From Comamonadaceae bacterium PBBC2 (GTDB lineage: Bacteria; Pseudomonadota; Gammaproteobacteria; Burkholderiales; Burkholderiaceae_C): 64,000 nucleotides of DNA. The notes under the pieces were generated by a model that was not told where the DNA came from, made no database searches, and was given only the letters and a program-made list of their open reading frames with translations. Below, piece by piece: positions 37,225 to 38,542 of this stretch. Position 1 is the first letter of the stretch; each line of letters starts with the position of its first letter. The stretch covers positions 27,197 through 91,196 of the forward strand of contig NKIO01000006.1 of assembly GCA_002255935.1 (NCBI GenBank), given 5' to 3'. Made by a program: the position numbers and the translations under genes.

Positions 37225-38406
37225 TTACAGGCCAGCTGCCGAGCGCAGTGCTGCAGACTTGTCGGTGCGCTCCCATGTGAAGTCGGGCTCGTCGCGGCCA
37301 AAGTGGCCATACGCTGCGGTCTTGCTGTAGATGGGGCGCAGCAGGTCCAACATCTGGATGATGCCTTTGGGACGCAGGTCAAAGTGCTCGGCCACCAAGG
37401 CGGAGAGTTTTTCGTCCGAGATCACGCCCGTGCCGGCGGTGTTGACGGTGATGTTCATGGGGCGTGCCACGCCAATGGCGTAAGCCACTTGCACCTGGCA
37501 CTGGGTAGCCAAGCCTGCGGCCACGATGTTCTTGGCCACGTAGCGGGCAGCGTAGGCGGCCGAGCGGTCCACTTTCGAGGGGTCTTTGCCCGAGAATGCG
37601 CCACCACCGTGCGGGCAAGCGCCACCGTAGGTGTCCACGATGATCTTGCGGCCCGTCAAGCCGCAATCGCCCTGGGGGCCGCCAATCACAAAGCGGCCGG
37701 TGGGGTTGATCAGGTATTTGGTGTCTTGCAGCCACTCTTTGGGCAGCACGGGCTTGATGATTTCTTCGATGATGGCTTCGGTGAAGCTGGCCTTCATCTT
37801 GGTCGATGTTTCCGACTGGTCAGGGCTGTGCTGGGTGGACAGCACCACGGTGTCGATGCTGTGGGGCTTGCCGTCCACGTAGCGCATGGTCACTTGGCTC
37901 TTGGCGTCGGGACGCAAGAAGGGCAGGCGGCCATCTTTGCGCAGCTGGGCTTGGCGCTCGACCAAGCGGTGTGCGTAGTAAATGGGGGCGGGCATCAGCT
38001 CGGGGGTTTCGCTGCAGGCGTAGCCAAACATCAGGCCTTGGTCGCCCGCGCCGATGTTGAGGTGGTCGTCAGAAGCGTGGTCCACGCCTTGGGCAATGTC
38101 GTTGGACTGCTTGTCGTAGCAGACCATGACGGCGCAGCCTTTGTAGTCGATGCCGTAGTCGGTGTTGTCGTAGCCGATGCGCTTGATGGTGTCGCGGGCC
38201 ACTTGGATGTAGTCCACGTGTGCGTTGGTGGTGATCTCGCCAGCGAGCACGACCAAGCCGGTGTTGGTCAGTGTTTCGGCGGCCACGCGGCTGCGCGGGT
38301 CTTGCTCGAAGATGGCGTCCAGGATCGCATCAGAGATCTGGTCTGCAACCTTGTCGGGGTGACCTTCCGAGACGGATTCGGAGGTGAAGAGGAAATCGTT
38401 GGCCAT
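37225..38406 (-). CDS. metK: S-adenosylmethionine synthetase
   Basis: [32 protein letters not shown]..., [35 protein letters not shown]. Confidence 0.98.
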
Positions 38407-38407
38407 G

Positions 38408-38466
38408 AAAAAAGCTCCTAAATTTTCAGAGGTTTATCGGCGTTGCCGACCCTGAAAACCCGGAGC
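38408..38466 (-). promoter_or_regulatory. metK expression-platform hairpin: sequesters the Shine-Dalgarno and is followed by U6 (possible terminator)
   Basis: Minus strand GCTCC-GGG-TTTTCAG-GGG-TCGGC-AAC-GCCGA-TAAACCT-CTGAAAA-TTTA-GGAGC-TTTTTT-C-ATG. The outer stem strand GGAGC is the SD. Confidence 0.7.
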
Positions 38467-38474
38467 CTGGCGAA

Positions 38475-38528
38475 CGCTTTAGCAGGTTTTATGAATCGCC
38501 CTGCAAGTAGTTCAGTTAACTCGGCGAT
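38475..38528 (-). ncRNA. SAM-II-like riboswitch aptamer upstream of metK
   Basis: Minus strand ATCGCC-GAGTTAACTGAACTACT-TGCAG-GGCGAT-TCATAAAAC-CTGCTAAAGCG. P1 is ATCGCC/GGCGAT; the TGCAG/CTGC(T) pairing forms an H-type pseudoknot. It retains GA.UUAAC, AUAAA and GCUAAA as in the metX SAM-II aptamer (recalled from memory). Confidence 0.72.
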
Positions 38529-38533
38529 GTGTG

Positions 38534-38542
38534 ATTATAACA
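38534..38542 (-). promoter_or_regulatory. metK: Candidate extended -10 promoter (TGTTATAAT) for the metK leader
   Basis: Minus strand TTG-T-TATAAT ends a few nt before the P1 stem of the aptamer, so the expected start is near the aptamer 5' end. No good -35. Confidence 0.6.

Follow-up and report, generated by a model that had tools for sequence, protein, structure and literature searches.

The SAM-II riboswitch (SAM_alpha, RF00521) is an H-type pseudoknot of helices P1, P2 and P2a, with a third strand that includes UU and a CUUGC / GCUAAA core. It serves methionine and SAM genes, and its promoter lies directly before P1 (Corbino 2005, PMC1273637). SAM-V (RF01826) has the same pseudoknot fold and pocket and controls translation, its short P2a including the Shine-Dalgarno (SD) sequence; in the SAM-V structure, U8, the equivalent of U10 in SAM-II, is bonded to the uridine paired with the adenine of SAM, and two uridines recognize the sulfonium (PMC6061858). 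SAM-II variants with long loops (RF01726) are known from Bacteroidetes and marine samples (PMC2864571). In beta-proteobacteria, Leyn et al. (2014) described a pseudoknot with a terminator, which they called novel, at metX and metZ only, without finding a regulator for metK (PMC4239095). In a methods paper of 2022, the 5′UTRs of metK, metX and metZ of B. thailandensis were suspected of being regulatory, the confirmation being unpublished (PMC8814607). A search of papers available without subscription returned no SAM-II element described before metK in this group.

The metK leader described here lies on the minus strand of the window, the whole 64,000-nucleotide stretch of Comamonadaceae bacterium PBBC2 DNA that was analysed. 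The AUG of metK is at 38406, and from 38539 to 38404 the minus strand comprises, in order, TATAAT, CACAC, AUCGCC, GAGUUAACUGAACUACUU, GCAG, GGCGAU, UCAUAAAAC, CUGC, UAAAGCGUUCGCC, a long hairpin that contains AGGAG, U6 and the metK AUG. The −10 box, P1, P2, the SD hairpin and the U run all lie where the initial annotation had placed them on this strand. The features are as follows.

37225..38406, minus strand: metK, methionine adenosyltransferase, 393 aa (TIGR01034, 590 bits against a cut-off of 309)
38534..38539, minus strand: TATAAT, a −10-like hexamer of the kind found upstream of P1 in metK leaders
38523..38528, minus strand: P1 5′ strand AUCGCC, covarying with 38495-38500
38516..38522, minus strand: L1 third strand GAGUUAA (SAM-II G8 to A14), conserved in alignment A2 (MAFFT, 71 leaders)
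38510..38513, minus strand: P2a 5′ strand GAAC, pairing with GUUC 38475-38472
38501..38506, minus strand: P2 5′ side, UU 38506-38505 (SAM-II U20, U21) and GCAG 38504-38501, with covariation
38495..38500, minus strand: P1 3′ strand GGCGAU, covarying with the 5′ strand; P1 is 6 bp
38486..38494, minus strand: L3, UCAUAAAAC; some relatives have a hairpin-bearing insert instead
38478..38485, minus strand: P2 3′ strand CUGC and putative ligand-site UAAA (SAM-II U44, A45, A46, A47), from alignment A2
38469..38477, minus strand: 3′ tail GCGUUCGCC, containing GUUC 38475-38472, the P2a 3′ strand
38413..38467, minus strand: SD-sequestering hairpin, predicted fold of 23 bp, −26.0 kcal/mol
38466-38462 with 38418-38414, minus strand, inside the SD hairpin: anti-SD GCUCC with SD GGAGC, covariation z −11.4
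38441..38447, minus strand: conserved GGCAACG within the SD hairpin, a possible alternative partner of the tail
38408..38413, minus strand: U6 run, terminator-like, between SD and AUG

All the SAM-II features named above, from the pseudoknot and its core to the position of the promoter and the type of gene served, are shared by the metK element. It differs from SAM-II in having G in place of U10 (G38520 in L1), a P2a of 3-4 bp (GAAC/GUUC here as compared with GAC/GUC in other families), an L3 that often carries a hairpin insert, an SD in a hairpin ~60 nt downstream, a score below Rfam detection and an occurrence in Betaproteobacteria at metK. P2 comprises 4 bp, GCAG (38504-38501) with CUGC (38485-38482), and covaries at A/G versus U/C. 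The TATAAT box puts the start of transcription at about the first base of P1. The fold, the pocket and the proposed translational control are also those of SAM-V, but the SD lies in a separate hairpin (38467-38413) rather than in P2a, and RF01826 has no match on the window. RF01727 also gave no match on the window; this model represents the SAM/SAH riboswitch, likewise a small H-type pseudoknot upstream of metK and, to our knowledge, described in the literature from Rhodobacterales only. Among relatives, RF01726 gave a single weak match (L073, 22.7 bits).

We assign a probability of about 0.75 to the reading that the metK leader is a SAM-II variant missed by the Rfam model and that the metK mRNA opens with this aptamer, which would repress metK translation at high SAM. 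P1 and P2 would form the H-type pseudoknot, capped by P2a, and L1 would be the third strand alongside P2. Plentiful SAM would bind and hold P2 and P2a together, thereby occupying the GUUC of the tail; the anti-SD just behind the tail would then pair with the SD, and metK translation would drop. When SAM is scarce, the tail would be free, the anti-SD/SD helix disfavoured and metK translated, the net effect being a SAM synthetase that is feedback-repressed by its own product. Comparison of sequences supports the predicted fold, the proposed SAM-II kinship, the association with metK, a location at the very start of the mRNA, and the SD pairing; we infer that SAM is the ligand, that its effect is OFF and that control is translational, and likewise the way in which the tail would act on the SD hairpin.

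The Rfam check that had been proposed at the outset, with RF00521 and the SAM-V model, came back empty: Rfam release 15 gave no match at this site of the window, either at the gathering threshold (36 bits for RF00521) or at an E value of 10. Kinship with SAM-II was therefore shown via relatives. Searched against the genome that the window comes from, RF00521 matches the metX leader (14.3 bits) and not the metK leader. The former carries a second form of the element, designated type A, the metK form being type B. Type A is marked by GAUUUGA and GCUUGC, occurs in metZ, metX, metH and MATE transporter leaders of related families, and in most cases has a terminator-like hairpin and U run behind it. 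RF00521 matches such betaproteobacterial type-A leaders down to an E value of 3.9e-7, two of them above the cut-off and most others at 2e-4 to 0.06. Conversely, covariance model R2, built from metK leaders alone, was run on 18 loci (L237-L254) of a different class of the phylum, presumably Alphaproteobacteria, and in 10 of them it finds the RF00521 site (E 7.4e-5 to 0.023, in 103 kb). This two-way homology through intermediates supports a kinship of the metK element with SAM-II. The SAM-II-like interleaved pseudoknot that the initial annotation had recognized before metK is borne out by this homology, by the identity of the helices and by the covariation of P1 and P2 described below.

Thirteen nucleotides of L1 and P2b, U10 among them, are reported to be completely conserved in SAM-II (PMC3764141). 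The window keeps 12 of these (U11, U12, U20, U21, G22, C23, G42, C43, U44, A45, A46 and A47), together with G8 of the neighbouring triple, and the equivalents of the 12 are invariant in A2, in part because the search pattern imposed them on the named loci. In 38478..38485, all letters but the first two are invariant in A2; the pattern demanded GCUAAAGCG of the named loci, and the same-genus loci are free of that constraint. The retention of SAM-II motifs was correctly noticed from the sequence and extends to nearly all pocket nucleotides; P2a and the change of U10 to G had been missed. G is present at the U10 position in the window and in 107 of 109 type-B metK elements, two metK leaders keeping U, whereas type-B elements at other genes have U in 22 of 29 cases and G in 7. 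The uridines equivalent to the sulfonium contacts (SAM-II U11 and U21) are kept in the metK element.

Support for the helices came from duplex energies, computed for each strand both with its true partner and with partners dealt among the sequences (116 distinct metK leaders, 2000 permutations). The own-partner z values were −15.2 for P1, −8.7 for P2, −9.0 for P2a and −11.4 for anti-SD/SD, with none of the 2000 permutations as extreme in any case; three unrelated control pairings between equally related segments gave z values of +1.2 to +3.4. An anti-P1 alternative (GGCGA/UUCGCC) had also been suggested; the complementarity is present in the window, but the pairing shows no covariation among the 116 leaders (z +1.7), and the alternative state was rejected. 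In A2, 98.2% of the cells of the pseudoknot, including P2a, pair, versus 93.0% in shuffles, and 73 cells are changed on both sides, versus 22.0; sliding the partners destroys the signal. For P2a, 95.7% of the cells are paired and two pairs have changes on both sides. On a tree of 100 MetK proteins, independent pairs were scored as changing together or opposite, with ratios of 5 to 0 for P1 pair 2, 3.2 to 0 for P1 pair 1 (3.2 of 4) and 3.5 to 0 for P2 (3.5 of 4, the 3′ base being the driver), each single test being too small for significance alone. On this tree P2a switches between length classes only two or three times, and its covariation therefore represents one or two evolutionary events; the SD/anti-SD base that was tried gave almost no informative pairs. 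RNAalifold, for which pseudoknots are beyond its drawing ability, returned P1 and spurious small helices. The compensatory changes, the outcome of a check on related metK leaders that the initial annotation had recommended, support P1 and P2 as probable interleaved helices.

The element is widespread in Betaproteobacteria, upstream of metK. It is present in all 28 complete same-genus metK leaders. In some leaders of this genus (L025, L027-L029, L031-L033, L037), L3 contains an insert of ~50 nt and the rest of the aptamer is unchanged. Covariance model R1, made from twelve same-genus leaders with the insert of three excised by hand and used as a search tool rather than as evidence, has matches in many families of the order, upstream of metK and in other places. 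A gene-blind pattern scan of named genomes yielded at least 120 stretches, of which 113 loci were parsed. Among the matches listed, 78 of 104 type-B loci lie directly upstream of metK, at a median of 66 nt; the other parsed loci are 26 with type B elsewhere and 9 with type A only. Polaromonas, Acidovorax, Comamonas, Cupriavidus, Ramlibacter, Polynucleobacter, Roseateles, Accumulibacter and Dechloromonas are represented, among others. CTTGCRGGGYG...GCTAAAGCG served as the search pattern for the named loci (L109-L228), and agreement at its letters is in part built in by that choice; no constraint was placed on the P1 5′ strand, on L1, on the base preceding GCUAAAG, on the tail past GCG, on the SD or on the gene downstream. 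In an even draw of 150 genomes from the order, at least 44, from 13 family codes, have an R2 match shortly before metK and in the same orientation; the R2 and metK tables were paired by eye, and the figure is a lower bound. A −10 box lies within 20 nt of P1, ~6 nt before it, in 112 of 115 metK leaders, as compared with 1 of 115 in a control window. The presence in every same-genus leader, the recurrence across the order and the compensatory changes in P1 and P2 together indicate more than chance.

Behind the tail, the anti-SD (GCUCC, CACUCC or UUCC) matches the SD (GGAGC, GGAGUG or GGAA) across families, and the predicted pairing of the SD has a mean of 0.80, as compared with 0.64 in shuffled platforms. 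The separate SD-burying hairpin of the initial annotation is upheld by this pairing, although the predicted fold has 23 bp rather than the ~19 bp given there. The favoured route by which SAM would reach the SD is that P2a and a partner further downstream compete for the tail. The coupling was not seen in equilibrium folding, where the SD is paired at 0.80 with the tail free and 0.81 with it sequestered (0.80 in both states for the window). Of the 93 leaders whose tail is standard, 75 contain the motif GGY(N)ACG, and the pairing of the tail with GGCAACG gave a z value of −2.6, the complementarity being clear in L092 and L172 and weak overall; that these two segments form an ON-state helix is a conjecture. 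According to the folding model, the hairpin in the window is so stable that control would need to act during transcription or via termination.

With the same aptamer, SAM might cause transcription termination, the SD hairpin and U6 serving as an intrinsic terminator in this genus, with or without masking of the SD. The very stable hairpin (−26.0 kcal/mol) followed by U6 is consistent with such a role, as are the U runs common in the window's own genus and the runs of U5 or longer that occur within 90 nt in 23 of 29 type-A elements. Most known SAM-II riboswitches, moreover, are transcriptional (PMC6061858), contrary to the earlier assertion that SAM-II usually masks the SD inside the aptamer. 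However, only 25 of 116 metK leaders have a run of at least five U between the SD and the AUG, SD masking being therefore the better general output; the conserved feature is the SD/anti-SD pairing, and the SD hairpin was not listed in a terminator scan of the window. On the U-run counts, the terminator was rejected as the general output, a role that the initial annotation had entertained. Termination is retained as a rival for the window's genus, where we consider it unlikely.

The G that replaces U10 raises the question of specificity, since this position is by the adenine site and the metK-linked change might shift affinity or the discrimination between SAM and SAH. The contrast between metK and other type-B elements, the reported complete conservation of U10 in SAM-II and the contact made by its equivalent in SAM-V all favour altered specificity. 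However, U11, U21 and A45 to A47 are kept, two metK leaders have U, and the change to G could have arisen once in the metK lineage and been inherited, and on balance we find a change of specificity improbable. A broader proposal, that the metK elements form a distinct SAM-II-derived subclass with a pocket retuned (U10 to G) for control of the synthetase, an altered affinity or discrimination between SAM and SAH, and a distant SD hairpin to which P2a and the tail are coupled via the conserved GGCAACG loop, is tentative and in our view rather doubtful. The P1 arms could also be read as DNA, that is, as an inverted repeat (ATCGCC/GGCGAT) just downstream of the promoter forming an operator for a methionine regulator such as SahR, the SahR/SamR consensus being ATC-10 nt-GAT (PMC4239095). 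Here, however, the arms are 22 nt apart, their outer letters vary with pairing kept (AU, GC, UA and CG at pair 1), the interleaved P2 and the SD pairing covary and long loop inserts are tolerated, and a DNA operator is hardly credible. The preferred reading is a SAM-II-type aptamer in the RNA that would control metK translation.

Other elements were observed among the relatives. SAM-II-type elements occur in tandem, with the terminator type A followed by type B at 11 loci (L077, L148, L149, L169, L176, L182, L187, L195, L197, L219, L224) and two type-A elements at L204; such tandems, found for example upstream of MATE transporter or HD-domain genes, are reminiscent of the Pelagibacter SAM-II/SAM-V tandem. 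In L219 the HD-domain gene is followed by a second MetK-like ORF. A same-genus locus (L071:369-551) has a SAM-I/IV riboswitch (RF01725, 61.5 bits), a terminator-like hairpin and then a type-B SAM-II-like element, so that two distinct classes of SAM aptamer stand one behind the other; L069 and L070 share its type-B sequence and terminator, RF01725 having been scanned in L071 only. Pseudomonas and Stutzerimonas elements with an L3 hairpin (L118, L124, L130, L137, L140, L179) precede a conserved ORF of ~105 aa (LLGGNHQPTLLRYLDGW), and a small ORF starting MYDC follows tandem or single elements in L110, L133, L148, L178, L187 and L076, in several cases upstream of a MATE transporter gene; for each of these two ORFs, the one representative tested had no Pfam or NCBIfam match. 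Type-B elements also lie upstream of AAA/MoxR-like ATPase genes (L074, L215, G007:C27), and genome G007 has a divergent metK paralogue (31% identity) ~3.4 kb downstream. The Burkholderia sRNA model Bp2_287 (RF02424) gave weak matches, below the cut-off, on the strand opposite type-A elements in L075, L077, L079, L082 and L083, which suggests that RF02424 may have been built from the wrong strand of a SAM-II-type riboswitch.

Since the Rfam model misses the metK form, current annotation overlooks it. The metK-linked change at a supposedly invariant pocket position makes ligand recognition by SAM-II testable in natural variants. The metXZ element of Leyn et al. resembles the metK element in being a betaproteobacterial pseudoknot, followed in its case by a terminator; type A at metX and metZ fits its description (PMC4239095) and matches RF00521, which indicates that this element, called novel, is SAM-II. 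If so, one aptamer family would span metX, metZ, metH and metK in these bacteria, with two output modes. In many families, the metK element is a strong candidate answer to the missing regulator of betaproteobacterial metK.
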